From Pseudomonadota bacterium (GTDB taxonomy: Bacteria > Desulfobacterota > BSN033 > WVXP01): 33,478 nucleotides of DNA. Shown here piece by piece: positions 2,726-27,038 of the stretch. The translations under genes and the position numbers were made by a program. Below the pieces are notes generated by a model that was not told the origin of the DNA, did no database searches, and saw only the letters and a program-made list of their open reading frames with translations. The stretch lies in contig WVXP01000161.1 in the NCBI GenBank assembly GCA_011773445.1, positions 5,327 through 38,804 of the forward strand. Direction: 5' to 3'. The stretch's first letter is position 1. Every line of letters starts with the position of its first letter.

Positions 2726-3173
2726 GTTCTGCTTCTTGACGAGTCTTCCGACATGGTAATCAAAAAAAGCCGCGGAAACTATAGAAATGTCTGGCTTTTT
2801 TGCGGCATATTAAAGGCTTCCCCTCAAAAAGTCAAGCGAGCCAATAAGTAGCCAGGAGCGTGAGATATACGCAGGGATATCTTCGAAACTTTCACATAGA
2901 TATTGCATCAATGACGGAGGTGTTTTGGTCATTTGATATTCGAGTTTTGAAATTGTTTCGAATTCGTCCCTGCCGGGACGCTTCGCCCGATATTCGGATT
3001 TCGAGTTTAAGCGTCCTACACATACTTCAAATTTGACCGAAATAGAATCGACTTTGATGTGGTTCCGTCGCGGGGCTGATCTTTCTTGCATTTTGAGACA
3101 CAATCTGTTACTATTTTTTATCGCCTCTCGTCTGTTTCTCTTCTTTCCTCTTTTACAACAATCGGAGAAGGAT
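2726..3173. other. Divergent intergenic region with degenerate repeat
   Basis: About 450 bp separate the divergent fusA-like gene and the envelope protein gene, so promoters for both should lie here; I see no clear sigma-70 match. Bases 2930-3010 carry an AT-rich repeat with TTCG/CGAA motifs (GATATTCGAGTTTTG, TTTCGAATTCG, ATTCGGATTTCGAGTTT). The 13-mer TTCGGATTTCGAG at 2993-3005 recurs exactly at 13718-13730. The long-frame upstream extension of the next gene (from 3033) runs through this repeat and is unlikely to be coding. Confidence 0.55.
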
Positions 3174-4301
3174 TTGTCTCATCTTGCCCTAAAGCGCTTC
3201 CTTTTCATCACGCTACTGGTTGCCCTCGTTTCTCCTGCAGCCTGCACCCACATCGAGAGACTCAAAAGGCCCTTTACCCATCGAGTGGACCGCAGGGTCC
3301 GGCATAAGGAAATCGTTCGCATCGATGATCGCGTCTATGTGAAAGTGCCGAATCCAGATGCCCAGGCTGAGGGTGCTCAAATGCAGTATCTCTATGTGTC
3401 GGTTGATGAGTATCTTGCCAACCGCGAGACCTTCGATTCGGCACCGATTTCGAAGCCATCCACCCAGGAGGAGGAATGGAGGCCTGTGGAATTGGAGACC
3501 GCATCGCTTCCGACGACGGAAGAACCGGATAAGACCGGAGAGATAGGAACTTCTCTCCATTTTAAGAAAAGGCTCATGATCGTTCCTTTCAGAGATTCGA
3601 CCAACGCTTCTCATAAAAAGCTTGCCGACCGTGCCCTGCAAACTCTGATTTCAAAGATCCGGACAACATCTGATCAGATTGTTTTTTTCGACGCTGCTAT
3701 TTTGGAGGAGACGCTGCGAAGCCGGAAACTCGACCTTAAATCCTTTGAATCTCCAGAGACCATACAGCTAGCGAATCAGCTGTTCAACGTTCACGCCATC
3801 GTTACAGGGACGATCAACCATCTCTTCACCTCATCAACTGAGAGCAAGGTCAAGGGGAAAGGCAAGACGACATATGCCATTGCTGAGATAAGCGCGAAGC
3901 TAATCGATGCGGCGTCGGGAAGGGTCGTACGGGTATGGGAGAAGAGAAATCCAACATTTGCCTCAGAGGGAAAAGGGGATTTCTCGGAAGAAAAGGCCCA
4001 GCTAAAAGCGATCGAATGGATCATTTCGGAAATCGGCCTGGAAATCACCGAGGAGTTAAGGGGGATCAGCTGGCATACGACGATCGCCAGCGTTGACGGT
4101 GACAGAGTATATATCAGCGCTGGAAAACTCTCTGGCGTTCGGGTCGGGGACGTATTCTCTGTCTACCCGGCAGCCTCTCAGGAGGAACCCAAAGGAGAGG
4201 TCCGTGTGGGGGACTTATTTGGGATTGATTCCTCTGTGGCAGACATCACAAGGGGAAAGGGCTTCAGAGCTAACGACGTGGTTAGGCCTACTTTGAGGTG
4301 A
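3174..4301 (+). CDS. CsgG/FlgT-like envelope protein, probable lipoprotein
   Basis: I chose TTG at 3174 as the start because GGAGAAGG lies just upstream (3164-3171) and the protein then opens with a signal sequence: positive KR, a hydrophobic stretch FLFITLLVALV, then SPAAC with Cys24 as likely lipidation site (the lipobox is imperfect, Pro at -3). The mature ~350 residues have a charged linker, then a segment from KKRLMIVPFRD through VHAIVTGTINHL and AKLIDAASGRVVRVW that resembles the CsgG/LpoB/FlgT middle fold. A C-terminal piece, VYISAGKLSGVRVGDVFSVY, resembles FlgT C-terminal domains. It is probably a periplasmic outer-membrane lipoprotein; its partner is unknown. It is 72 bp upstream of carD on the same strand. 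The family call is by motif style only. Confidence 0.6.
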   Translation: MSHLALKRFLFITLLVALVSPAACTHIERLKRPFTHRVDRRVRHKEIVRIDDRVYVKVPNPDAQAEGAQMQYLYVSVDEYLANRETFDSAPISKPSTQEEEWRPVELETASLPTTEEPDKTGEIGTSLHFKKRLMIVPFRDSTNASHKKLADRALQTLISKIRTTSDQIVFFDAAILEETLRSRKLDLKSFESPETIQLANQLFNVHAIVTGTINHLFTSSTESKVKGKGKTTYAIAEISAKLIDAASGRVVRVWEKRNPTFASEGKGDFSEEKAQLKAIEWIISEIGLEITEELRGISWHTTIASVDGDRVYISAGKLSGVRVGDVFSVYPAASQEEPKGEVRVGDLFGIDSSVADITRGKGFRANDVVRPTLR

Positions 4302-14732: not shown

Positions 14733-16082
14733 ATGGAAGGATCTGAAGTCCACCTTCTCGACTACCTCAGAATCGTTTACAAACGGAAGTGGCTCATTCT
14801 TGCGATCATGTTGATGGCCATGGCTCTGGGGGCTTTTCGTGTTTACCGGGCCGTGGCAATCTACCAGGCTGTGTGTACCATTAGTGTCGGGGACAGACAG
14901 AATACAACAATCCACGGGGGTCAGGTGGTTCAATACACTGACTACTGGTCTTCGGAGAAAAACATTAACACTCACCTCCAAATCATGCTGAGCGAACCTG
15001 TTCTTGAGGAGGTGAGCAACTCGTTGAACCTGGGCACACCATCCAACTCTCCGGTAGGGCCCGAAGCGTTGAGGGGCTATTACAGGATTGAGTCCGTGAA
15101 GGACACCAATCTCATACGAATCAAGGCAATTCACACGGATCCAGGGACAGCCCAGAAGCTAGCGAATGTCATGGCAACCAGCTATCGGGAGTTCAACATC
15201 AAGAAGCGCCTCGAGTCGTCTGAAAACAGCGTCTTATGGCTTAAGAAAGAGATCACGGACTTAAAAAAGAAGATGGAGGAGGCAGACTACAATCTCTACC
15301 AGTACAAGCAGAAAAGCCATATCCTTTCTTTGGAAAAAGAGACCAAAATGCAGGCCGAAGAACTCTCACAACTTCGGTCCACCCACAACGAAACCCGTGT
15401 CAAGCGCATTGAAATCGAGGCGAAAATAAGGGAGTTAGAAAGAATCCTCAAACTCAAGAACAAGTACATTCCCGCTTTCCTCGAAGGAGACGTTTTTCCC
15501 ACCTTAAGCAATAACCTTGTAAAAGCCAGACTCGAACTGGGGCAGCTACAGAAAAAATATGGACCGAGGCATCCGAAAATCATTGCTGCTCAATCGAATA
15601 TCACCTCGATTCAGGTCCAGATCGATCAGAATATCAAGAAGGCCATAAAGAGCCTCCAATCCGAGCATTCCGTTCTGCTCGCAAAAGAGCAGACCCTGGA
15701 AGCAACCATCAAGAACTATACCCAGAAGGCCATGAACACGGAGCAGAAACAAGTCCAGTATGCCCTTCTTGAGAAGGAAACCTTAATCAACAAAGAGCTC
15801 TATGACATCCTGGTGGCAAAGTTAAAGGAGATAAACATTACCGAGGGCCTCGAAACGCCGGAGATTACAGTCGTAGAGACGGCTGAAATGCCGGGAACTC
15901 CCATGCAGTCGAAGCGGAATATGAACCTGGCTATGTCCGCCATTCTCGGATTGGTTTTCTCGCTCGGTTTGGCTTTCTTCCTCGAATATCTCGATGTGGG
16001 GCTATCTACGAGAGAAGAGGCAGAGAAATATCTCGATCTTCCTGTCTTGGGAGTCATTCCGCAAACCCAGACAAGAAACTAG
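14733..16082 (+). CDS. Wzz/GumC-type polysaccharide chain-length determinant protein
   Basis: This is a 449-residue polysaccharide co-polymerase of the inner membrane. TM1 spans ~20-36 after the short cytoplasmic start (LLDYLRIVYKRKW, typical of Wzz). A large periplasmic part follows, with a long coiled coil (~165-350, e.g. LKKKMEEADYNLYQYKQK) and the conserved GPRHPKIIAAQSNI. A Pro-rich stretch ETAEMPGTPMQSKRNMN precedes TM2 (~398-418) and a short tail ending DLPVLGVIP. Such proteins set polymer length together with a BY-kinase, here encoded 10 bp downstream as a separate protein. The gene has its own sigma-54-type promoter. No glycosyltransferase or polymerase gene is in the window, so the polymer is unknown. 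Confidence 0.9.
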   Translation: MEGSEVHLLDYLRIVYKRKWLILAIMLMAMALGAFRVYRAVAIYQAVCTISVGDRQNTTIHGGQVVQYTDYWSSEKNINTHLQIMLSEPVLEEVSNSLNLGTPSNSPVGPEALRGYYRIESVKDTNLIRIKAIHTDPGTAQKLANVMATSYREFNIKKRLESSENSVLWLKKEITDLKKKMEEADYNLYQYKQKSHILSLEKETKMQAEELSQLRSTHNETRVKRIEIEAKIRELERILKLKNKYIPAFLEGDVFPTLSNNLVKARLELGQLQKKYGPRHPKIIAAQSNITSIQVQIDQNIKKAIKSLQSEHSVLLAKEQTLEATIKNYTQKAMNTEQKQVQYALLEKETLINKELYDILVAKLKEINITEGLETPEITVVETAEMPGTPMQSKRNMNLAMSAILGLVFSLGLAFFLEYLDVGLSTREEAEKYLDLPVLGVIPQTQTRN

Positions 16083-16092
16083 CAGGCAATCT

Positions 16093-17370
16093 ATGGGACA
16101 TAACCATCGTAGGAGCATTTTTGAGATTAGAAAGGACGGACCTTTTGCTGAGGCCTTTGACAGCCTCATGGTCAATTTTTCCCTGTCCTCAATCGATGAC
16201 CCGATCAAGAGTATTCTGGTTACAAGTAGCGTTATGGAGGAGGGAAAAACCCTTGTCGCTACCAATCTGGCGATCAATATCGCTGCCACGGGCAAGAAGG
16301 TCCTTTTGGTCGACCTAGACCTGCGCCGCCCCTCCGTGCACAAATGGCTCGATGTGAACGGGAATTTCGGCCTCGTGAATGCCCTGCTCGGTATCACGAG
16401 TGTCAACATCGAATCCGGCAGGTTGGGAGAATATACCATTGGCGATCTCCTCTACTTCCTTGAGGCTCAAGGTAGAAGCGCCTTGGTGACCTTCGAGAGC
16501 GACGGCACAGCTGTGGAAGTGACCGTCAAAGCCGGGCACATTATCAATGCCAATCTCAAGAATGGACCGATCGAGAGGAGTCTTGGAAGGATTCTCCTTC
16601 ACTGCAAAGGGATCACATCCGATCAATTGAAGGAAGCTCTGACCCTTCAGCAGCGTACAGGAAAACCCCTGAGCCAGCTCCTTGTCAGCCTCGGTTTTTC
16701 TCCTAAGGAAGAGATTAAGAAGATTACAAAAGCATTGATCGAAGAAAGCCTTCGGAGGCTCTTCCTTTTCGAGAATCCTACTTTTCGGATTGAGAACCTA
16801 AATAGCGCTCACATCGAAACCTATGCAGAAGAGGTTTCCAAAGAACAGGCCTATTTCAGAAGGTTTGTGGAACTCAACACAGCGCCCTTTTTCAATCGGG
16901 TGGTGAGCGCGGCCGTCAAGTCCACACCCGTTCAAAACCTCTTCGTTTGTCCCTGTGGAAAGCTTCCTCCCAACCCCGTGGAGGTCATGGGTTCGAAAAG
17001 AATGGAAGAGTTTGTCAAAATAGCCACCGCCAGTTTTGACATGGTCGTCCTCGACTCATCCCCGGTTTTGGGGGCAGCCCACGCATCTCTGTTACCCTCT
17101 CTCGTGGACGGAGTGCTCCTCGTCGTTCGGGCAGGAAAGACGGATAAGAAAATCATCCTGGAGGCAAAGAGGCAATTGGAAATGGCCAACGCCAAACTTC
17201 TTGGGGTGGTGCTCAATGGGGTGGACCGGAGAGTTCACTACCGCCGGTACTATCCCCACTATGCCCGAAGCGAGGAAGCAGACACCAAACAACCCGTTCA
17301 CCGGAAACTGATCCCCCTACTCCGGGGGAACTCCGATTCAGCCCCAGAACGGGGCCAAGAGGCGCGATAG
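16093..17370 (+). CDS. BY-kinase (CpsD/Wzc-like) homologue with inserted DUF4388-like domain
   Basis: This 425-residue cytoplasmic ATPase begins with ATG 16093, 10 bp after the wzz-like stop. Kinase parts are recognisable: Walker A in VTSSVMEEGKTLVATNLA (43-60), Walker A' VLLVDLDLRRPSVHKWL (70-86), then CGKLPPNPVEVMGSKRMEEF (288-307), Walker B FDMVVLDSSPVLG (315-327) and a Tyr-rich tail HYRRYYPHY (382-390). Between ~113 and ~275 lies an extra domain absent from ordinary BY-kinases: GDLLYFLEAQGRSALVTFE, then VKAGHIINANLKNG and ITSDQLKEALTLQQRTGKPL. It resembles DUF4388 (PATAN) domains of deltaproteobacterial signalling proteins. The usual PP in Walker B is SP and Walker A deviates (MEEGKT), so activity may be altered. 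Confidence 0.8.
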   Translation: MGHNHRRSIFEIRKDGPFAEAFDSLMVNFSLSSIDDPIKSILVTSSVMEEGKTLVATNLAINIAATGKKVLLVDLDLRRPSVHKWLDVNGNFGLVNALLGITSVNIESGRLGEYTIGDLLYFLEAQGRSALVTFESDGTAVEVTVKAGHIINANLKNGPIERSLGRILLHCKGITSDQLKEALTLQQRTGKPLSQLLVSLGFSPKEEIKKITKALIEESLRRLFLFENPTFRIENLNSAHIETYAEEVSKEQAYFRRFVELNTAPFFNRVVSAAVKSTPVQNLFVCPCGKLPPNPVEVMGSKRMEEFVKIATASFDMVVLDSSPVLGAAHASLLPSLVDGVLLVVRAGKTDKKIILEAKRQLEMANAKLLGVVLNGVDRRVHYRRYYPHYARSEEADTKQPVHRKLIPLLRGNSDSAPERGQEAR

Positions 17371-17551
17371 AAAAGCCACCCGCCGCCATGTGTGTTCCTC
17401 CTTTCCGCCCCTCTCTGACTCCTTCTCAAGATCAGGGAAAATGGCATGAATACTGCATAAATACGCTTGGATTTGTCCGTTTAAGAGACCTCCTGACATT
17501 CGGAACGAGATCTCCATATTGAGTCCCTTTTGAGTTGCACAACGAAACGAA
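17371..17551. other. Spacer between kinase and peptide cassette, with promoter
   Basis: The 181-bp gap holds no gene. Its main content is the sigma-54-like site at 17442-17457, giving a predicted leader of ~85 bases before the PqqD-like gene. CCCCC and GGGGG at 17313-17329, inside the 3' end of the kinase gene, could form a small stem but lack a T-run. Confidence 0.5.
17442..17457 (+). promoter_or_regulatory. Sigma-54-like promoter before the radical SAM peptide cassette
   Basis: TGGCATGAATACTGCA agrees with TGGCACG-N4-TTGCA except for two positions and keeps the invariant GG-N10-GC. It lies ~110 bp upstream of the PqqD-like start in the only sizeable gap between the kinase and the cassette. 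Expected transcription start is near 17468. Confidence 0.58.
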
Positions 17552-17854
17552 TTGAAAGAGGTGGCAGGAACCTTGATCGCAAATACCGACAAACCGGTAG
17601 CAAACCCTGTGGCAGTACTCCGAGAAGAATTCGACGACTGGGCCGTTCTTTTTGACCCTGACTCCGGAAATGCCTTTGGCCTCAACCCTGTCGGAGTGTT
17701 TATCTGGAAACGCCTCGACGGCCATCATACAACAGGAGACATCCTGAAAGAACTCTGTGAGCACTGCAGAGACGTCCCTGGGGACGCGGAGAGCCACATT
17801 ACGGATTTTGTCAAAGATTTAATGGACAAAGGCTTAGCAGGATATCAAATATAA
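17552..17854 (+). CDS. scmD: PqqD-like peptide chaperone, SynChlorMet ScmD type
   Basis: This protein of up to 100 residues has the PqqD fold signature: KPVANPVAVLREEFDDWAVL, FDPDSGNAFGLNPVGVFIW, then RLDGHHTTGDILKELCEHC and a final helix. PqqD-type RiPP recognition elements bind the leader of a ribosomal precursor and present it to a radical SAM enzyme. Start codons are ambiguous: TTG 17552 (used here), GTG 17561, or TTG 17573, which has CAGGA nearby and opens directly at IANTDKPV. It is the first gene after the second sigma-54-like promoter and is followed by two radical SAM/SPASM genes. The domain is secure; the ScmD name rests on cassette context. Confidence 0.85.
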   Translation: MKEVAGTLIANTDKPVANPVAVLREEFDDWAVLFDPDSGNAFGLNPVGVFIWKRLDGHHTTGDILKELCEHCRDVPGDAESHITDFVKDLMDKGLAGYQI

Positions 17855-17920
17855 GAGGCGTAAGGCACAAGGCTCAGGGTCAAGGGCGAAAGGTGGAGTG
17901 GCAGGGGCAAAATATAGATC

Positions 17921-19030
17921 ATGAGACTGATGAACACCCCACGGTCTGTGGAGATCTCTGTTACAAACCGTTGCAATCTCAGATGCACGTACTGCAGCCA
18001 TTTCACAAGCGCCGGTGACGTGGATCAAGATCTGCCCGCCCACGAATGGCTCACGTTTTTCGAAGAGTTGGCCCGCTGCGCGGTCATGGATGTGACACTT
18101 GAGGGAGGAGAGCCCTTTTGTCGGGAAGATCTGAAGGAACTCATTAGGACCATTGTCCGAAACCGAATGCGATTCAACATCCTGAGCAATGGAACGTTGA
18201 TCACGGATGAAATCGCAGCTTTTCTGGTTGCAACCAGCCGTTGTGACGGTGTTCAAATCTCGATTGATGGCTCCGTTCCCATGACACACGACGCGTTCCG
18301 GGGCAGTGGGAGCCTTGTAAAGGCAATCCATGGAATCAAGTGTCTTCAAAGGCACGCTGTTCCCGTTACTGTCCGGGTGACCATTCACAGACAGAATGTC
18401 AGGGACCTTGAAAACATCGCCGAATTGCTGTTGGAGAAAATTGGCCTTCCAGGTTTTTCGACCAATGCTGCCTCATTTATGGGCCTCTGCAGGCAGCATA
18501 CCGACGATGTTCAGCTTTCGATAGAAGAACGCTCGCTTGCGATGGAAAGCCTTTTGAAGCTCAAAAATAGATACAACGACCGCATCAGCGCTTCCGCCGG
18601 CCCTCTGGCTGAGGCGGAAAACTGGCTAAAGATGGAACAGGCTCGTCGGGAAAGAAAGGAATCTATCCCAGGAAGTGGCTATCTGACAGGTTGCGGAGGG
18701 GTGATGAGCCAAATGGCGGTGCGTGCCGACGGGGTCATGGTTCCATGCATTCAAATGAGCCATATCGAGTTAGGCCGAATAAATAGGGATGATCTTAAAG
18801 AAATCTGGCAGAATCACCCCCAACTGAATAGGCTCAGAAGTCGCCACGATATTCCGTTGTCCGATTTCAAGTTTTGTCAGGGGTGCGATTTCATCAACTA
18901 TTGCACTGGAAATTGCCCTGCTCTGGCCTACACGATTCTTGGCGAAGAGAATCATTCAAGTCCTGATGCATGTCTCAAACGATTTTTGGAAGCAGGAGGG
19001 CGGCTGCCACACAAAAACGTAAGAGCTTAA
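17921..19030 (+). CDS. scmE: Radical SAM/SPASM peptide-modifying enzyme, ScmE-like
   Basis: This 369-residue enzyme has the radical SAM cluster motif CNLRCTYC (Cys18, 22, 25), the GGEP motif at LEGGEPF, and a full SPASM set: Cys258 and Cys276, then the CX2CX5CX3C run 319/322/328/332 and Cys351. It therefore should hold one SAM-cleaving and two auxiliary 4Fe-4S clusters, as in PqqE, AlbA and other thioether- or C-C-forming RiPP enzymes. The segment SHFTSAGDVDQDLPAHEW and CAVMDVTLEGGEPFCREDL match my memory of the SynChlorMet ScmE family. It works presumably with the PqqD-like protein encoded 66 bp upstream. The substrate is likely the Cys-repeat peptide encoded at 20284. The reaction type is not predictable by eye. 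Confidence 0.88.
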   Translation: MRLMNTPRSVEISVTNRCNLRCTYCSHFTSAGDVDQDLPAHEWLTFFEELARCAVMDVTLEGGEPFCREDLKELIRTIVRNRMRFNILSNGTLITDEIAAFLVATSRCDGVQISIDGSVPMTHDAFRGSGSLVKAIHGIKCLQRHAVPVTVRVTIHRQNVRDLENIAELLLEKIGLPGFSTNAASFMGLCRQHTDDVQLSIEERSLAMESLLKLKNRYNDRISASAGPLAEAENWLKMEQARRERKESIPGSGYLTGCGGVMSQMAVRADGVMVPCIQMSHIELGRINRDDLKEIWQNHPQLNRLRSRHDIPLSDFKFCQGCDFINYCTGNCPALAYTILGEENHSSPDACLKRFLEAGGRLPHKNVRA

Positions 19031-19065
19031 TTGGTTCGATTGGTTTCATTGGTTCGGTTGGTTTA
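19030..19065 (+). repeat. Four tandem 9-bp units TTGGTTnnn
   Basis: TTGGTTCGA, TTGGTTTCA, TTGGTTCGG and TTGGTTTAG follow each other without a gap, beginning with the last A-T of the scmE stop region and filling most of the scmE-scmF spacer. A related run of TTGGA/TTGGTTTAA/TTGGTGGA/TTGGC occurs at 21571-21600, after scmC. Its role is unknown; it is probably a dispersed simple-repeat family. Confidence 0.85.
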
Positions 19066-19095
19066 GTCACTTTGAATGTGGAATGACTGCAAAAC

Positions 19096-20265
19096 ATGAA
19101 GAGAAACTCTAATAAGAAATCCCAAAAGCGGAAATATCCGTTGAATCAGATTTACTTTTACCTAACCGGGGGGTGCAACCTGAGGTGCCGTCACTGCTGG
19201 ATTGTGCCCAAGTACCAGAGTGCGGGGAACTCCTATCCAACTCTGGATCTGGATCTTTTCAGATCCATCGTTGAACAGGCAAGAACCCTGGGGCTCTCGG
19301 GTGTTAAGTTGACGGGCGGTGAACCCCTCTTACATCCTCAGATCCAGGATATTATGGAACTTATTCAGACAGAAGAACTCAGTCTGACGGTGGAGACTAA
19401 CGGCGTTTTGTGTACGCCTAAATTGGCCGAAAGGATGGCTGCGTGTAAAAACACATTTGTCTCAGTAAGCCTTGACGGCGGAAATGCAGAAACCCACGAG
19501 TGGGTGCGCGGCGTCCCAGGCTGCTTTGACCACGCCTTGGTGGGTATAAGAAACCTGGTGGTTGAGGAGCTCAAACCTCAAATCATCATGACCATCATGC
19601 GCCGAAATAAGTGCCAAATGGAGGCGGTTGTTCGATTGGCCGAGTCACTGGGTGCCGGCTCGGTGAAGTTCAATCTTCTCCAGCCAGTCGCCAGGGGGGA
19701 GAAAATGCACGAAGCCACTGAGACTCTGACGATTGAGGAGCTTGTGGATCTGGGACAATGGGTGGGAACAACCCTTTCGGCTTCAACCCCTTTGCGGCTC
19801 GTCTATAGCCATCCAATGGCCTTCCGCCCCCTATCGAATATGTTCGGCAACAATGGTGACGGATGCGGAGTCTGTGGAATTCTTGGCATTCTCGGTGTTC
19901 TGGGAAACGGCTCCTATGCCCTCTGCGGCATCGGGGAGACGGTCCCCGAGCTCGTCTTCGGGCACGCAGCAACTGATCGCCTGGAGGATGTCTGGAACAA
20001 TACACCCGTCCTTCTTGAACTCCGCGAGGGACTTCCCCACCGATTTGAGGGAATCTGCCAGGATTGTCTCATGAAGACTCGGTGTCTCGGTGAATGCGTC
20101 GCCCAGAATTACTACCGCGCGAAGAACCTCTGGGCACCATTCTGGTTTTGCGAAAATGCCTATGAAAAAGGACTCTTTCCAGAATCTCGAAGAATTTCAA
20201 ACGCCCTGCGCCGGACTGCCAGGGACAGCTCCCCGACCATGCCCACGAGAGCTGATGAACATTAA
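19096..20265 (+). CDS. scmF: Radical SAM/SPASM peptide-modifying enzyme, ScmF-like
   Basis: This second enzyme has 389 residues. The cluster motif is CNLRCRHC (Cys27, 31, 34) after YPLNQIYFYLTGG, the GGEP motif is KLTGGEPLLHP, and the SPASM-type cysteines are at 257, 260, 277, 321, 324, 330, 334 and 352. The Gly-rich loop DGCGVCGILGILGVLGNG between auxiliary-cluster cysteines is unusual. Sequence style (YPLNQIYFYLT, CRHCWIVPKYQ) fits ScmF as I remember it. Two different SPASM enzymes for one short peptide suggest two distinct modifications or two classes of residue. It is separated from scmE by a repeat-filled 65-bp spacer and from the precursor candidate by only 18 bp. The ribosome-binding site is weak. 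Confidence 0.88.
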   Translation: MKRNSNKKSQKRKYPLNQIYFYLTGGCNLRCRHCWIVPKYQSAGNSYPTLDLDLFRSIVEQARTLGLSGVKLTGGEPLLHPQIQDIMELIQTEELSLTVETNGVLCTPKLAERMAACKNTFVSVSLDGGNAETHEWVRGVPGCFDHALVGIRNLVVEELKPQIIMTIMRRNKCQMEAVVRLAESLGAGSVKFNLLQPVARGEKMHEATETLTIEELVDLGQWVGTTLSASTPLRLVYSHPMAFRPLSNMFGNNGDGCGVCGILGILGVLGNGSYALCGIGETVPELVFGHAATDRLEDVWNNTPVLLELREGLPHRFEGICQDCLMKTRCLGECVAQNYYRAKNLWAPFWFCENAYEKGLFPESRRISNALRRTARDSSPTMPTRADEH

Positions 20266-20283
20266 AACCGGAGCCGAAACGAC

Positions 20284-20475
20284 ATGACACGAAATGAAGT
20301 GAAGAAAAAAGATGGGAAGCTCAAATATCAGAAACCCCAACTGATGAGATTGTTTGGTTCTGAGGACACCGCTTCGGGAGCGAGTTGCGGACCTGGTAAC
20401 AGTGCCGTTCCCAATTGCACGCTGGGAACGAGCGCGAAAAACAGTTGCGCCTCCGGAACTGGGTTTATTCCCTAA
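20284..20475 (+). CDS. Candidate RiPP precursor peptide with three-Cys repeat core
   Basis: This 63-residue peptide lies 18 bp after scmF, with CGGAG ~11 bases before its ATG. Residues 1-32 form a Lys-rich leader (MTRNEVKKKDGKLKYQKPQL, then MRLFGSEDTASG); KPQLMRLFG is the sort of segment a PqqD domain binds. Residues 34-63 are a small-residue core with Cys35, 45 and 55 exactly 10 apart, made of three units: SCGPGNSAVP, NCTLGTSAKN, SCASGTGFIP (pattern [SN]CxxG[NT][SG]). The composition (Gly, Ser, Thr, Asn, Cys) suits sactipeptide- or ranthipeptide-like thioethers. It may be what the ScmA name covers; I cannot confirm. Coding is supported by position, start context and repeats, though no homologue was searched. 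Confidence 0.78.
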   Translation: MTRNEVKKKDGKLKYQKPQLMRLFGSEDTASGASCGPGNSAVPNCTLGTSAKNSCASGTGFIP

Positions 20476-20630
20476 TTTAAATGGGGGGGGGTTCGAAGGC
20501 ATAGAATCCATTTTGGGAATCAATGGGAGTCTTCCCCCTATTTCCGCGAAATTGACACCTCGGTGCCACCGGCTCACTGACGCGTGGAAGACTACTGACA
20601 TGGGAGACGAGGGGAAATCTGGTATTTTGA
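20476..20630. other. Spacer after the precursor gene
   Basis: The 155-bp gap between precursor and scmC starts with a run of nine G (20483-20491) and has only short possible stems (GGGAGTCTTCCC at 20525-20536; CGGTGCCACCG at 20561-20571). A partial attenuator that raises precursor levels over downstream genes would be expected here but is not clearly visible. A plus-strand frame 20354-20638 crosses it and is probably a shadow. Confidence 0.4.
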
Positions 20631-21566
20631 ATGACTAAAATGCACCGCACAGTAGACAAGCAGAGACGTTATTGCCTAGAGCTCGGAAACGGCCTGGGGT
20701 GGACCCTCACAGCTACTGAAAGGGTAAGGTTTTGGCTCGAGAAGTTCGCGTCGATCCTGGAGCTCACCGCGTGTGGTCCGAACGGGCACCCAAGACTGAT
20801 TTTCATCCCTCACAAAGCAGAACACTCTGGGAACGGGGAATCCGCAGCCATCCTCGATTCAGACAGACTCAAGGATCTTCCACAGGGGGGATGGACTAAA
20901 CAAACCCTCGGGGCGCTGAGGTTCTGGTCCCACCCGAGGGTTTCAGACATGATCTGCGAGACCGGTCAATTAGACGACAATATTGATGAGATTGTAAGTA
21001 TGTGGTGGGCGGTTTACCCGATTTTTCGGCGGGTGCAGGAGTCCGATGGACTTCCTCTCCATGCAGCGCTTGTCGGGCGGAACGGGGTGGGTGTCCTGCT
21101 CGCAGCTCCAGGGGGCACAGGAAAATCGACCTGTTGCCGTCGTCTACCATCTCCATGGCATGCCCTGTGCGATGATGAAACAGTGATCGCCCGTGATCAC
21201 GGGAACCGATACCTGGCGCACCCATTTCCAACGTGGAGTGAGTCCATCCAGCGAGGGCCCGGACGCAAATGGAACGTCCAACATTGTCTACCGCTATCGG
21301 CCGTATTCTTTTTGGAGCAGGCAGAGACCGACGAGGCAGTTCCCATCGGAAAGGGGGAAACCAGCGCGCTAATCAACAGATTAGCCGTCGAGGTATCTCG
21401 GATCGATTGGAGAAATCTGCCTCGAGAGGAGAAAATTCCTATCAGGAAAAAACTCTTTCACAACGCATGCGAACTCGCAAAATCAGTCCCGGCATTTAAG
21501 CTTCGGGTGAGCCTTAACGGTCGCTTTTGGCAGGAGATGGAAAGGGTTTTGTCAGAAATAGTTTGA
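20631..21566 (+). CDS. scmC: HprK-like P-loop protein, ScmC-like
   Basis: This 311-residue protein has a P-loop, LLAAPGGTGKSTCCRRL (APGGTGKST at 159-167), preceded by LPLHAALVGRNGVGVLL, and an acidic ALCDDETVI block at 178-186. This is the HPr kinase-like arrangement often encoded in RiPP clusters beside PqqD-like and radical SAM genes. N-terminal residues ~1-130 are not recognisable beyond a few aromatic/Arg motifs (TERVRFWLEKF). HPr kinases phosphorylate a protein Ser; relatives in lasso and other peptide clusters may phosphorylate peptides, but activity here is unknown. In SynChlorMet cassettes an otherwise uncharacterised protein ScmC accompanies ScmD/E/F, and this gene fits by context. 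The start is ATG 20631 or 20640; GAGGGG lies ~14 bases upstream. Confidence 0.75.
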   Translation: MTKMHRTVDKQRRYCLELGNGLGWTLTATERVRFWLEKFASILELTACGPNGHPRLIFIPHKAEHSGNGESAAILDSDRLKDLPQGGWTKQTLGALRFWSHPRVSDMICETGQLDDNIDEIVSMWWAVYPIFRRVQESDGLPLHAALVGRNGVGVLLAAPGGTGKSTCCRRLPSPWHALCDDETVIARDHGNRYLAHPFPTWSESIQRGPGRKWNVQHCLPLSAVFFLEQAETDEAVPIGKGETSALINRLAVEVSRIDWRNLPREEKIPIRKKLFHNACELAKSVPAFKLRVSLNGRFWQEMERVLSEIV

Positions 21567-21584
21567 TCAGTTGGATTGGTTTAA

Positions 21585-22235
21585 TTGGTGGATTGGCTGG
21601 GTCTTTTGAGTCAGAGGGAAAAACCAATAAAACAAAGATTTGTAACGTACACGGGCCCCAGCATGAATCCCACGTTGAGGGCTGGGGACAGACTTGAGGT
21701 GAATCCATATGAGGGTCGAAAGATTCGACCAGGAGATGTGATCGTTTTCCTCTCACCTGAAAATGGCAGCAAAATCTCCCATCGCGTCGTTTCCACTGGT
21801 CCAGACGGAGTCAGAACCCGGGGAGACAAAAACAGCCAAATTGACCCATGGGTTATCCGTACCGATCAAATACTTGGGCAAGTGATCTGCGCGGAAAGAG
21901 GAAACATAAGACGCTGGATCTTTGGAGGCTGGATGGGGATAATGTCCGCCACAGCAGTCAGAACCCTCCGTAGGGTCGACTCAAGCATGTCCTCCCTGCT
22001 CTATCCTGCCTATGATTGGCTATCCAGGTCAGGCATATTCGGGCGACTATTACCAGGCCAAAGGAAAACCCGAGTTGTCTCATTCAACCGACCCGCAGGC
22101 AGAGAACTACAACTGCACATGGGAGAGTGGGTAATCGGCAAATGGATGCCACACAGGCGTCAATGGCAGATTCGCAGGCCTTTTCGACTTTTTGTGGACG
22201 AAGCATCTTTGCCCGACAACCTGCCCGATTCATAG
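21585..22235 (+). CDS. S24/S26-family signal-peptidase-like protein (His-type dyad)
   Basis: The sequence YTGPSMNPTLRAGDRLEVNP carries the catalytic-Ser box of signal peptidase I (GxSMxPTL, Ser26 in this frame). IRPGDVIVFLSPENG follows, then KISHRVVS, where His replaces Lys as in the S26B (SipW/eukaryotic SPC) branch, and TRGDKN. The length is up to 216 residues; after ~residue 105 the protein is Arg-rich with no matched domain. There is no clear N-terminal membrane helix, unlike ordinary signal peptidases, so it could act in the cytoplasm. The proposed role is cleavage of the cassette peptide's leader; this is inference. The start is uncertain: TTG 21585, GTG 21588 or TTG 21606; the first two lie in the TTGG-type repeat. 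Confidence 0.72.
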   Translation: MVDWLGLLSQREKPIKQRFVTYTGPSMNPTLRAGDRLEVNPYEGRKIRPGDVIVFLSPENGSKISHRVVSTGPDGVRTRGDKNSQIDPWVIRTDQILGQVICAERGNIRRWIFGGWMGIMSATAVRTLRRVDSSMSSLLYPAYDWLSRSGIFGRLLPGQRKTRVVSFNRPAGRELQLHMGEWVIGKWMPHRRQWQIRRPFRLFVDEASLPDNLPDS

Positions 22236-22261
22236 CCTTTTTCCACCGATGAGCTTGAAGT

Positions 22262-22277
22262 AGGCCCGTCCCTTGCA
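22262..22277 (+). promoter_or_regulatory. Sigma-54-like site before the ABC exporter gene
   Basis: AGGCCCGTCCCTTGCA keeps the invariant GG-N10-GC and the whole -12 element TTGCA; two positions of the -24 element deviate (A for T, C for A). It is in the 101-bp gap after the S26-like gene; transcription would start near 22288, ~49 bases before the first possible start codon. Confidence 0.5.
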
Positions 22278-22336
22278 TAGATCTCTGTCCAGTTCATGAT
22301 CAATTCAATCATTACCTCATTGCATCAGGTTAGAAA

Positions 22337-24193
22337 TTGAGAACCAACTTGTTCACAATTCTTAAACAGGGGCTTTCCCGGAAACCGCTGAGAGATACGA
22401 TCACCGAGCGACATAGCTACGGCGGCATCAAAGCCAACCTGAAGAACCTTCGCCCCTTTGTTGGCCGACACTGGCGCAAAGGCGCATTGGGCGTACTCCT
22501 CATTATCATCACTTCGACCCTCGGTTTTCCCCAACCCCTGATCATGCGTTACCTCGTCGACGACGTCGTCCTGAGCCGTCAACTGGCCTTGTTAGCTGGG
22601 GCCATCATTCTTTTGGCTGGGATCTCGCTGGTGGAAAAGCTGGGGGGCTTACTTGAGAGATTCTATTTTACGCGATTTGAACAGGAAGTAACGCTCGACA
22701 TCCAGAACAGTCTACTCGAGCGAACCCTTCGGTTCCCCAAGTCATTTTTCGACGGGAACCAGACGGGTTATCTTATGTCGCGGTTGTCCTCTGACGTTCA
22801 GGGCCTTCGCTGGTTCTTCTCAAGCACCATAGTTTACATTGTCACCAATCTCATACGCATTGTTGGTGGCGTAGGGCTCCTCTTCTATTTGGAATGGAGG
22901 CTGGCCATTGGCATTCTGATCCTGCTCCCAGGACTCGTACTCTGTATTCGCTACTTCTCGGGTAAGATCCACGTCCTGAGCCATCAGGACATGGAAAGGC
23001 AGGCCGCTGTCTCACGTCGCCTGCAGGAATCACTGTCTTCGCTCTCTTTAATCAAAGCCTTTGCGTCGGAAGCACGCACCGTTCGACGTCTGATCTTGGA
23101 GTTGAGGGCAGCGTTTTGCATCTCTCTCGAACAATCCACGGTAAATTCGGTTGCCAATCTCGCGATCAATTCGATGCCCGGCATTGCTCGGGTCAGTACA
23201 CTCGCATTGGGAGCGTACTGGGTGATTCTTGGCCAATGGAGCCTGGGCTCTTTACTCGCCTTTCAGGCCTATTTGGGGTACGTATTCGGTCCGGCGCAAT
23301 TTCTGGCGTCGGCGAATCTCCAACTACAAAATGCCCGAGCCTCGTTGGAGCGTGTCTCGGCCGTTTTTGACATCCTTCCAGAAGAGAACCTGGGCAAGGG
23401 GATAAAGGTCGAGGGCCTAAAGGGGCAAATCGAGTTCAAAAACGTGTCCTTCTCTTACGACAGCCGTGAGCCAGTCCTGAAGGGAGTCTCCTTCCGCATC
23501 AATCCAGGAGAGCATGTCGCGGTCGTGGGACCCAGTGGTGTGGGGAAAACGACGCTACTGAGTCTCATCCTGCTTTTCTACAGACCCACGTCAGGAGATG
23601 TCTACTTTGATGGGCGACCGGGGTCGGAGTACGAAGTCGCGTCGTTGCGGCAGCGCATCGGGTATGTCTCCCAAAATGACCTCCTCCTATCCGGTACGGT
23701 CCTGGAAAACCTTTGTTATGGAAATCCCGAGGCCCGAGAAAAGGAAGTCATTCGCGCGGCCCGGGTGGCGAAAATCCACAAATTCATTACAAGTCTCCCG
23801 GCAGGTTACCAGACTGAAATCGGCGAGAGAGGAATCAGCCTTTCGGAAGGACAAAAACAGCGCCTGGCCTTTGCCCGGGCATTGGTCAGGGATCCGGACA
23901 TCCTGGTGTTGGATGAGCCGACATCTGCCCTGGATAGCATAACCGAGAATTCAATCTTCCAATCTTTGCCTTTCGCCCTCAAGAAGAAAACCCTTTTTCT
24001 TGTGGCCCACAGGCCTTCGACCATTTTGACCTCAAATAGGATTCTCCTGTTAAATGAAAGCGGCCGTGTCTCGACTGGAACACATCAGTCCCTCCTCGAG
24101 ACAAACGATTATTATCGTTCGGTGATCGGTCACAGCGGAACCGAGACCGAATGGAAGCCCTCCACGTCGATTACTCGCCCGATTCTCAGTTAA
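22337..24193 (+). CDS. ABC exporter (half transporter, MsbA/ATM1 type)
   Basis: This 618-residue half transporter fuses a six-helix membrane domain (~45-330) to an ATPase. The ATPase shows GPSGVGKT (398-405), the Q-loop YVSQND (Gln446), signature LSEGQ (502-506), Walker B DILVLDEP (521-528), SALD and the H-loop His558, so it should be active as a homodimer. There is no N-terminal C39 peptidase domain, so it cannot cut leaders by itself as bacteriocin exporters do. It is the last gene of the cassette and the natural candidate to export the modified peptide, though lipid or glycan export is possible given the Wzz/kinase genes upstream. The start is TTG 22337 (unusual) with no strong ribosome-binding site; a later start near residue 15-40 is conceivable. 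Confidence 0.88.
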   Translation: MRTNLFTILKQGLSRKPLRDTITERHSYGGIKANLKNLRPFVGRHWRKGALGVLLIIITSTLGFPQPLIMRYLVDDVVLSRQLALLAGAIILLAGISLVEKLGGLLERFYFTRFEQEVTLDIQNSLLERTLRFPKSFFDGNQTGYLMSRLSSDVQGLRWFFSSTIVYIVTNLIRIVGGVGLLFYLEWRLAIGILILLPGLVLCIRYFSGKIHVLSHQDMERQAAVSRRLQESLSSLSLIKAFASEARTVRRLILELRAAFCISLEQSTVNSVANLAINSMPGIARVSTLALGAYWVILGQWSLGSLLAFQAYLGYVFGPAQFLASANLQLQNARASLERVSAVFDILPEENLGKGIKVEGLKGQIEFKNVSFSYDSREPVLKGVSFRINPGEHVAVVGPSGVGKTTLLSLILLFYRPTSGDVYFDGRPGSEYEVASLRQRIGYVSQNDLLLSGTVLENLCYGNPEAREKEVIRAARVAKIHKFITSLPAGYQTEIGERGISLSEGQKQRLAFARALVRDPDILVLDEPTSALDSITENSIFQSLPFALKKKTLFLVAHRPSTILTSNRILLLNESGRVSTGTHQSLLETNDYYRSVIGHSGTETEWKPSTSITRPILS

Positions 24194-25969: not shown

Positions 25970-27038
25970 AACGTTGTTGGATTTGTTGAATTACTGTTCC
26001 GTAGACCTTTTTACTGTTTTGGAGATGGCAGATGTGGAGACACCCATTTGGCGAGCTATCTCTGCTAACGGAATCCCATAGATCTCCACGAGCTTACACG
26101 CTATCATTGACCTGATCTGAGATATGCGTCTTCGACGGCCTCCAGCCCTCAATTCTTCAACGCTGATCCTCTCTTTTTTGCATACCTCCTCAATGAACCG
26201 TTCCACCTCTTGACTCCGCTGATTTGCTGGAAACTGATACTGTACAATCTTATCGGCTTCCATCGTGACTCGTTCTACAAAATCTCCACTTCCCAATATC
26301 CGCTCATCAGATAACTCACGACCTCCATGTCTACGCAAGGATATCACCTGGGACCACCCGCCCCGAGAACGAATCAAACCTCCCCCCACTAACTCGGGAC
26401 GTCTCCCCTGTGCTATCCCTGCTTCCACATACTGATGATAAGCCCTTTTGGCCTCTCCTTCTCTCTTGCCAAACCAGTTCAACACATAGTCTCGATCCTG
26501 CCATTCATTTTTGAATCGACCCATCAAAACACCGTGACCACACCAAGGGTATCTGGCAAGTTCGGACATGTTTTCTAATATTCTCGCTCGCAAAGGATTC
26601 AGGTGAATGTAACGAACCAACTCCAAAAAATAGGAATCTTCTTCACAAACTATCGATTTATAACGATTCTGAAACAGATGGCCATGCCGGGAATGACGGC
26701 GGTTATACGCAACAGCATAGCCGGTAAGCAATCGTCGCATGTACCTCGACAAACCCAATGCTCCGCTCCGTAAGAGAATGTGAGCATGATTTGGCATCAA
26801 AGACCAGGCATAGATTACCGTACCAGTTTCAGGGGCAATCTTGCCCATGCGAAATACGAAATCTTGTCGATCTTCGTCATTATCAACAATACGCTCCTTT
26901 TCAATCCCCCGGATGATGACGTGATGTAAAGTTCCGGGAGCATCGAGCCTCGCCTGCCGGGGCATAAAACCTCTCCGAACCTGGTTTTCTCATCTCATAT
27001 CATGACTAGAAAAGTTATTCAACAAATTCAACAACGTC
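25970..27038. mobile_element. RAYT-type element bounded by 25-bp inverted repeats
   Basis: The left end (25970-25994) begins AACGTTGTTGGATTTGTTGA and its reverse complement matches the right end (27014-27038, GTTATTCAACAAATTCAACA and on) at 22 of 25 positions. The repeats enclose only the Y1 transposase gene; the left repeat overlaps its stop codon. IS200/IS605 elements normally have hairpins rather than long terminal inverted repeats, so these may be two REP-like units in opposite orientation. Confidence 0.65.
25991..26965 (-). CDS. REP-associated tyrosine transposase (Y1/IS200-like), with C-terminal HTH
   Basis: This 324-residue HUH-family nuclease starts MPRQARLDAPGTLHHVIIRG, the usual opening of this group. 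The HUH motif is PNHAHILL (His60, His62), and the Tyr-containing helix is YFLELVRYIHLNPLRARIL. A C-terminal extension after ~210 ends in a DNA-binding HTH, IPLAEIARQMGVSTSAISKT. RAYT proteins cut and join single-stranded DNA at REP hairpins and are usually domesticated single-copy genes. GGAGAGG precedes the ATG. The gene appears intact. It separates the signalling gene from the decayed toxin-antitoxin pair, consistent with an insertion-prone region. Confidence 0.88.
   Translation of the reverse strand: MPRQARLDAPGTLHHVIIRGIEKERIVDNDEDRQDFVFRMGKIAPETGTVIYAWSLMPNHAHILLRSGALGLSRYMRRLLTGYAVAYNRRHSRHGHLFQNRYKSIVCEEDSYFLELVRYIHLNPLRARILENMSELARYPWCGHGVLMGRFKNEWQDRDYVLNWFGKREGEAKRAYHQYVEAGIAQGRRPELVGGGLIRSRGGWSQVISLRRHGGRELSDERILGSGDFVERVTMEADKIVQYQFPANQRSQEVERFIEEVCKKERISVEELRAGGRRRRISQIRSMIACKLVEIYGIPLAEIARQMGVSTSAISKTVKRSTEQ

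Follow-up and report, generated by a model that had tools for sequence, protein, structure and literature searches.

A SynChlorMet-type radical SAM cassette with a tandem Cys-x-x-Gly precursor, an S26-type peptidase and an ABC exporter in a Desulfobacterota genome

The cassette in the window

The DNA analyzed here (the window) is a stretch of 33,478 nucleotides from a Pseudomonadota bacterium placed by GTDB in Desulfobacterota (assembly GCA_011773445.1, contig WVXP01000161.1, positions 5,327 to 38,804 of the forward strand). Seven contiguous genes lie in a single direction on its + strand between 17552 and 24193 (Table 1). They encode a PqqD-like protein (ScmD), which is the recognition element (RRE) type of protein of ribosomally synthesized and post-translationally modified peptides (RiPPs), two different radical S-adenosylmethionine (SAM) proteins with SPASM domains (ScmE and ScmF), a peptide of 63 residues with a Cys repeat, an HprK-like P-loop protein (ScmC), an S26-like peptidase and an ATP-binding cassette (ABC) exporter. 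All were found in the order given by the original prediction, which had assigned them to the SynChlorMet family; the ScmC, ScmD, ScmE and ScmF models of NCBIfam supported this assignment with scores above their cut-offs. The S26-type peptidase and the ABC exporter had no Scm model among their matches. On these model scores the window is judged to hold a complete SynChlorMet-type cassette, a fresh member of a named family, and the gene set predicted for precursor, modification, possible cleavage and export is present.

Table 1. Genes of the cassette (scores are bits/cut-off)
Gene product	Position	Strand	Model matches
ScmD, PqqD-like (RRE)	17552..17854	+	TIGR04248 137/100; PF05402 63 bits
ScmE, radical SAM/SPASM	17921..19030	+	TIGR04250 643/400
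ScmF, second radical SAM/SPASM	19096..20265	+	TIGR04251 611/400
ScmA-type precursor, 63 aa	20284..20475	+	TIGR04252 28.6/35, E 1.3e-6
ScmC, PEPCK/HprK-fold P-loop, kinase-like	20631..21566	+	TIGR04249 292/125
S26-type peptidase, Sec11/archaeal type	21585..22235	+	PF10502 31.8/22.9; TIGR02228 51.4/51.85
ABC exporter	22337..24193	+	PF00664 and PF00005

The start of ScmD is uncertain and may be the TTG at 17552 or the in-frame TTG at 17573, which is preceded by GAGG. A scan for promoters and terminators gave a number of sites not above chance. TIGR04247 and TIGR04253 were considered as possible ScmB models, and both turned out to be unrelated families. In the open literature no paper on the SynChlorMet cassette was found, a search for ScmE/ScmF together with radical SAM returned only unrelated papers, and searches by organism and by motif yielded nothing on it. 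The parts of the cassette have names but, as far as we found, apparently neither a bench study nor a product.

Precursor repeats and distribution of the cassette

The leader of the window peptide carries YQKPQL, and its core consists of three C-x2-G units forming a perfect 10-residue repeat, in which C35, C45 and C55 are paired with G38, G48 and G58; the last residue is Pro. When the genome was scanned with the repeat pattern, the peptide gene and one further place were matched, and a backward control pattern gave 1 match. The original prediction held that no SynChlorMet precursor had been identified, which was incorrect, since NCBIfam has the ScmA model TIGR04252; the window peptide matches it below the cut-off. 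However, this model matches just 17 of 52 related precursors at E<=0.01 and therefore looks too narrow to settle precursor membership.

Similar peptides sit at the same position in most related cassettes, and 73 precursors from 60 sources, the window included, were collected. They share a leader motif of the YxxP type, mostly [Y/W]xxPx[L/I/V/M/F]. Their cores are composed of tandem units C-x2-G-x2-[A/P]-x3, commonly 10 residues apart, with 1 to 15 Cys. Usually 6-8 residues, a whole unit, remain after the last Cys. In a set picked by leader and position only, without regard to Gly, Gly was present at Cys+3 in 65% of cases, compared with 17.4 +/- 1.7% in shuffles that preserved the Cys positions, and at the remaining offsets from 1 to 9 in 6-18%. 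In the cleaned set Gly was found at +3 in 83%, at +2 in 10% and at +4 in 20%; this set had been pre-filtered for Gly at +2 to +4, so that only the contrast of +3 with +2 and +4 is informative. The description of the family as tandem Cys-x-x-Gly units makes its chemistry predictable and testable. Long precursors with 14-15 Cys (L064:2039-2476, L083:9650-10039, L083:11061-11489, L083:12485-12868, L093:7324-7701 and L093:8572-9306) deviate from the simple 10-residue repeat and belong to a single ScmF subclade. Four precursor genes stand in a row in one cassette at L061:7749-9008.

Relatives were gathered from the ScmF alignment as 80 named loci, 39 of which have at least 4 kb on either side of ScmF. 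Across the 80 loci ScmD, ScmE and ScmF are nearly constant, usually in company with ScmC, an S26-type peptidase and a small peptide. The original prediction named Syntrophobacter, Chlorobium and Methanocella as the genera in which the family was defined; the actual range is far wider than the name SynChlorMet implies. It spans Thermodesulfobacteriota and other 'Deltaproteobacteria', Nitrospirota, Chlorobiota, Verrucomicrobiota, Chloroflexota and Planctomycetota, together with several candidate phyla and methanogenic archaea. Among the 39 well-flanked loci, ScmE was present in all 39, ScmD in 38, ScmC in 32 and the S26-type peptidase in 31. A precursor was present in at least 33, a minimum because in two of the six loci scored as lacking it, L065 and L112, a precursor was seen that a later filter dropped. 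The predicted conservation of the peptidase, the exporter and the small peptide beside ScmE/ScmF was upheld, for the exporter less often. The commonest additional neighbor is a cluster of nucleotidyltransferases of the NTP_transf_5 type (38 loci, typed by one scanned member); no such gene turned up in the genome that contains the window (82% completeness).

The ScmF tree intermixes phyla, with 37 label changes against a minimum of 15, and within the class to which the window belongs ScmE is absent from every member searched. Transfer of the cassette is likely, although binning errors in metagenome-assembled genomes and loose organism names weaken this conclusion. Carriage by mobile elements was considered, and no ScmF relative was found in phage records (E<=1e-40) or plasmid records (E<=1e-60). 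At L044:4927-6648, ScmD, ScmF and a precursor form a set that has no ScmE of its own, with a complete cassette downstream of it. In three other ScmE/ScmF loci (L089, L097 and L105) no ScmC or S26-type peptidase was recognized; L105 has an additional PqqD-like protein and L089 a different HprK/PEPCK-like protein, which may point to a second type of cassette.

In the window, Wzz and bacterial tyrosine kinase (BY-kinase) genes (14733-17370) are located directly upstream of the cassette. The kinase (15994-17370), of the type acting in polysaccharide biosynthesis, has an inserted DUF4388 module (residues 141-269) that splits its ATPase domain, and an MshE-related motif for binding cyclic di-GMP (residues 197-242) was matched above the cut-off. 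It is possibly a tyrosine kinase controlled by cyclic di-GMP. Near the cassette, the gene at 25991-26965 on the - strand encodes what we take to be a transposase of the type associated with repetitive extragenic palindromes, and relatives of it lie near the cassettes of L066 and L042. A 422-aa open frame at 3033-4301 has no Pfam match at E<=1e-5.

Proposed maturation of the peptide and its alternatives

The CxxxCxxC motif of ScmE (C18/22/25) and its seven SPASM Cys (C258/276/319/322/328/332/351) are conserved at 99-100% in 72 homologues, and the corresponding residues of ScmF (C27/31/34 and C260/277/321/324/330/334/352) are invariant in 83 homologues. Since these Cys are kept, each enzyme is expected to carry two auxiliary clusters. 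The solved relative scoring best for ScmE is SkfB, a sactisynthase; with ScmF, similar scores were obtained for cytosylglucuronate decarboxylase, SkfB and PqqE. The discrete PqqD-like protein, together with precursors sharing a leader, marks the cassette as a putative RRE-dependent RiPP system in which ScmD is predicted to bind the leader.

H144, K165, T167, D181 and D182 of ScmC are invariant in 47 homologues. The ScmC profile matches an HprK/P sequence at 6e-5, and the fold of the AlphaFold2 model (mean confidence score, pLDDT, 92) matches those of PEPCK and HprK/P. Because the superpositions are loose, with a whole-chain root-mean-square deviation of about 10, the modeled ScmC is assigned to the PEPCK/HprK-fold P-loop proteins as a fold family and not by function.

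In the S26-type protein, residues S26, H66 and D87 are invariant in 53 homologues, and the nearest solved relatives by both sequence and fold are human SEC11C and SEC11A. We take its Ser-His arrangement to be that of Sec11/SipW-type signal peptidases. The protein has an extra C-terminal part, and no membrane span was predicted, no 19-residue stretch exceeding 1.6 on the Kyte-Doolittle scale. Since it lacks an anchor, we catalogue it as a putative S26-type peptidase rather than as a housekeeping signal peptidase. Six loci encode it fused with ScmC as one protein, and in L044 it is fused to an NTP_transf_5 nucleotidyltransferase. Signal peptidases have preferences at the -3 and -1 positions, which A-x-G fits; 47% of linkers carry this motif within the last residues ahead of the first Cys, compared with 8% of shuffled ones. 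In the window peptide it is A30-S31-G32, after which the cut is predicted. The tie between the A-x-G boundary and S26 cleavage is suggestive only. A double-glycine leader was also considered, and GG is not enriched in the linkers. The ABC protein has membrane and ATPase domains and matches exporter subfamily models below their cut-offs; no C39 peptidase domain was among its domain matches.

From the gene content, the family memberships, the conserved catalytic residues, the linkage of the genes and the repeat grammar, we propose the following maturation pathway. By RiPP logic, ScmD would hold the 63-aa precursor by its YxxPxL leader and offer the core to ScmE and ScmF. Singly or paired, these would introduce a single crosslink into every C-x2-G-x2-A unit; in thuricin CD, a pair of radical SAM enzymes can act as one complex or be needed together (PMC12093266). 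The crosslink would most likely be a thioether from Cys to the alpha-carbon of Gly+3, in the CX2G geometry of streptosactin, in which GggB forms unnested S-Calpha rings between Cys25 and Ser28 and between Cys31 and Gly34 (PMC8172795). Since each repeat has one Cys and a fixed Gly+3, this precedent leads us to expect small rings of four residues in a row, none nested within another. Hydroxyl residues of the peptide are the probable target of phosphorylation by ScmC, whose role is the weakest step of the scheme. In paeninodin, the C-terminal Ser of the precursor receives a phosphate from an HPr-kinase homologue, and in pseudomycoidin a nucleotidyltransferase glycosylates the C-terminal Ser phosphate (PMC8498205); the pair of a kinase-like protein and a nucleotidyltransferase, as in these lasso systems, recurs in many SynChlorMet loci. 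The Ser-His S26 enzyme would then take off the leader near A-x-G just ahead of the first Cys, and the ABC protein, having no peptidase domain, would export the product. Taken as a whole, this scheme of a RiPP cassette with one Cys-Gly+3 S-Calpha thioether per unit, ScmC phosphorylation, S26 cleavage and ABC export seems to us somewhat more probable than its failure.

Several observations weigh against it. Only 3 of the 73 precursors end in Ser, so they lack the residue that lasso kinases modify, and the C-terminal Ser was rejected as the kinase target. The family models do not place ScmE and ScmF especially near known sactisynthases, and Ala/Pro, conserved at +6, might serve as the acceptor in place of Gly. 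The A-x-[G/A] boundary motif is found in 33 of 58 precursors with an S26-type peptidase and also in 6 of 15 without one; the peptidase, lacking a membrane anchor, could act elsewhere. Only 22 of the 39 well-flanked loci have an ABC protein resembling that of the window.

The product may have a structural or a metal or redox role, perhaps linked to the adjoining extracellular polysaccharide genes, rather than being an exported antimicrobial or signal, and such a role would be compatible with any chemistry. The Wzz and BY-kinase genes directly upstream in the window, similar neighbors in 11 loci and export-protein-like neighbors in 9, the presence of the cassette in many anaerobes, and an immunity gene not being recognized all point in this direction. 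However, the majority of loci have no neighbors of these kinds, and the figures are raw counts per locus; we regard this role as rather unlikely.

In another linkage, Cys would be joined to Ala/Pro at +6 or, as in ranthipeptides, to a beta or gamma carbon, with Gly+3 needed only as a turn. Position +6 is Ala or Pro in 54% of units, ScmE reaches 95 bits with the PapB ranthipeptide model (cut-off 340), and PapB forms tandem Cys-X3-Asp S-Cbeta rings, so that tandem thioethers are not necessarily alpha-linked (PMC8172795). Against this, +6 is much less fixed than +3 (41% Ala versus 83% Gly in the same set), and Gly provides just the alpha-carbon as acceptor; we consider the other linkage unlikely. 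It is likewise doubtful that the tasks are split, with one radical SAM enzyme crosslinking Cys and the second altering another residue of the unit (by epimerization, a C-C bond or otherwise) to give a doubly modified product: ScmE and ScmF belong to separate families, both are nearly always part of the cassette, and the L044 set without its own ScmE suggests that ScmF may work alone, but the complete cassette nearby could provide ScmE in trans, and the thuricin CD enzymes cooperate in a single reaction (PMC12093266).

What this study adds is the grammar of the precursor repeats, the S26-type peptidase as a frequent and sometimes fused partner, and the wide distribution of the cassette. With the precursor collection, the joined residues (each Cys with its Gly+3), the leader cut site and the enzymes involved can be precisely predicted. 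Should the prediction hold, a chemically distinct class of peptides found in both bacteria and archaea would be added, along with a maturation protease of a new kind. More broadly, it is imaginable, though we would not expect it, that the ScmA peptides constitute a widespread RiPP class with tandem four-residue Cys-Gly thioether rings, phosphorylated, in relatives perhaps glycosylated through a nucleotidyltransferase, and freed by an anchorless Sec11-type Ser-His protease. Signal peptidases and S26 go unmentioned in a review from 2023 on the leader proteases of RiPPs (PMC10885120).

Comparison with known systems

The cassette resembles the SynChlorMet definition (TIGR04248-TIGR04252) in that ScmC, ScmD, ScmE and ScmF score above cut-off and an ScmA-type precursor stands where expected, and differs from it in that the precursor falls under the ScmA cut-off and the conserved S26-type peptidase and ABC exporter matched no Scm model. 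With lasso clusters such as those of paeninodin and pseudomycoidin, SynChlorMet loci share a PqqD-like protein, an HprK-fold kinase, a nucleotidyltransferase (in 38 loci), a protease and protease fusions. However, they lack a conserved C-terminal Ser, S26 replaces the B2 protease, the window genome yielded no nucleotidyltransferase, and no lasso cyclase is present among the cassette genes. The PapA/PapB ranthipeptides (freyrasin) are similar in their tandem Cys repeats with a fixed distance to the acceptor, whereas their spacing is CX3D instead of CX2G, and SynChlorMet precursors have no conserved acidic acceptor. Streptosactin (GggA/GggB), a type II sactipeptide, has a SPASM enzyme, unnested CX2G/CX2S spacing and a separate protease in common with the cassette. 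It differs in having two rings and one radical SAM enzyme, whereas SynChlorMet systems have 1-15 Cys per core, two radical SAM enzymes, and separate PqqD-like and kinase-like proteins. The CX2G spacing and the SPASM enzymes would be compatible with the sactipeptide class.

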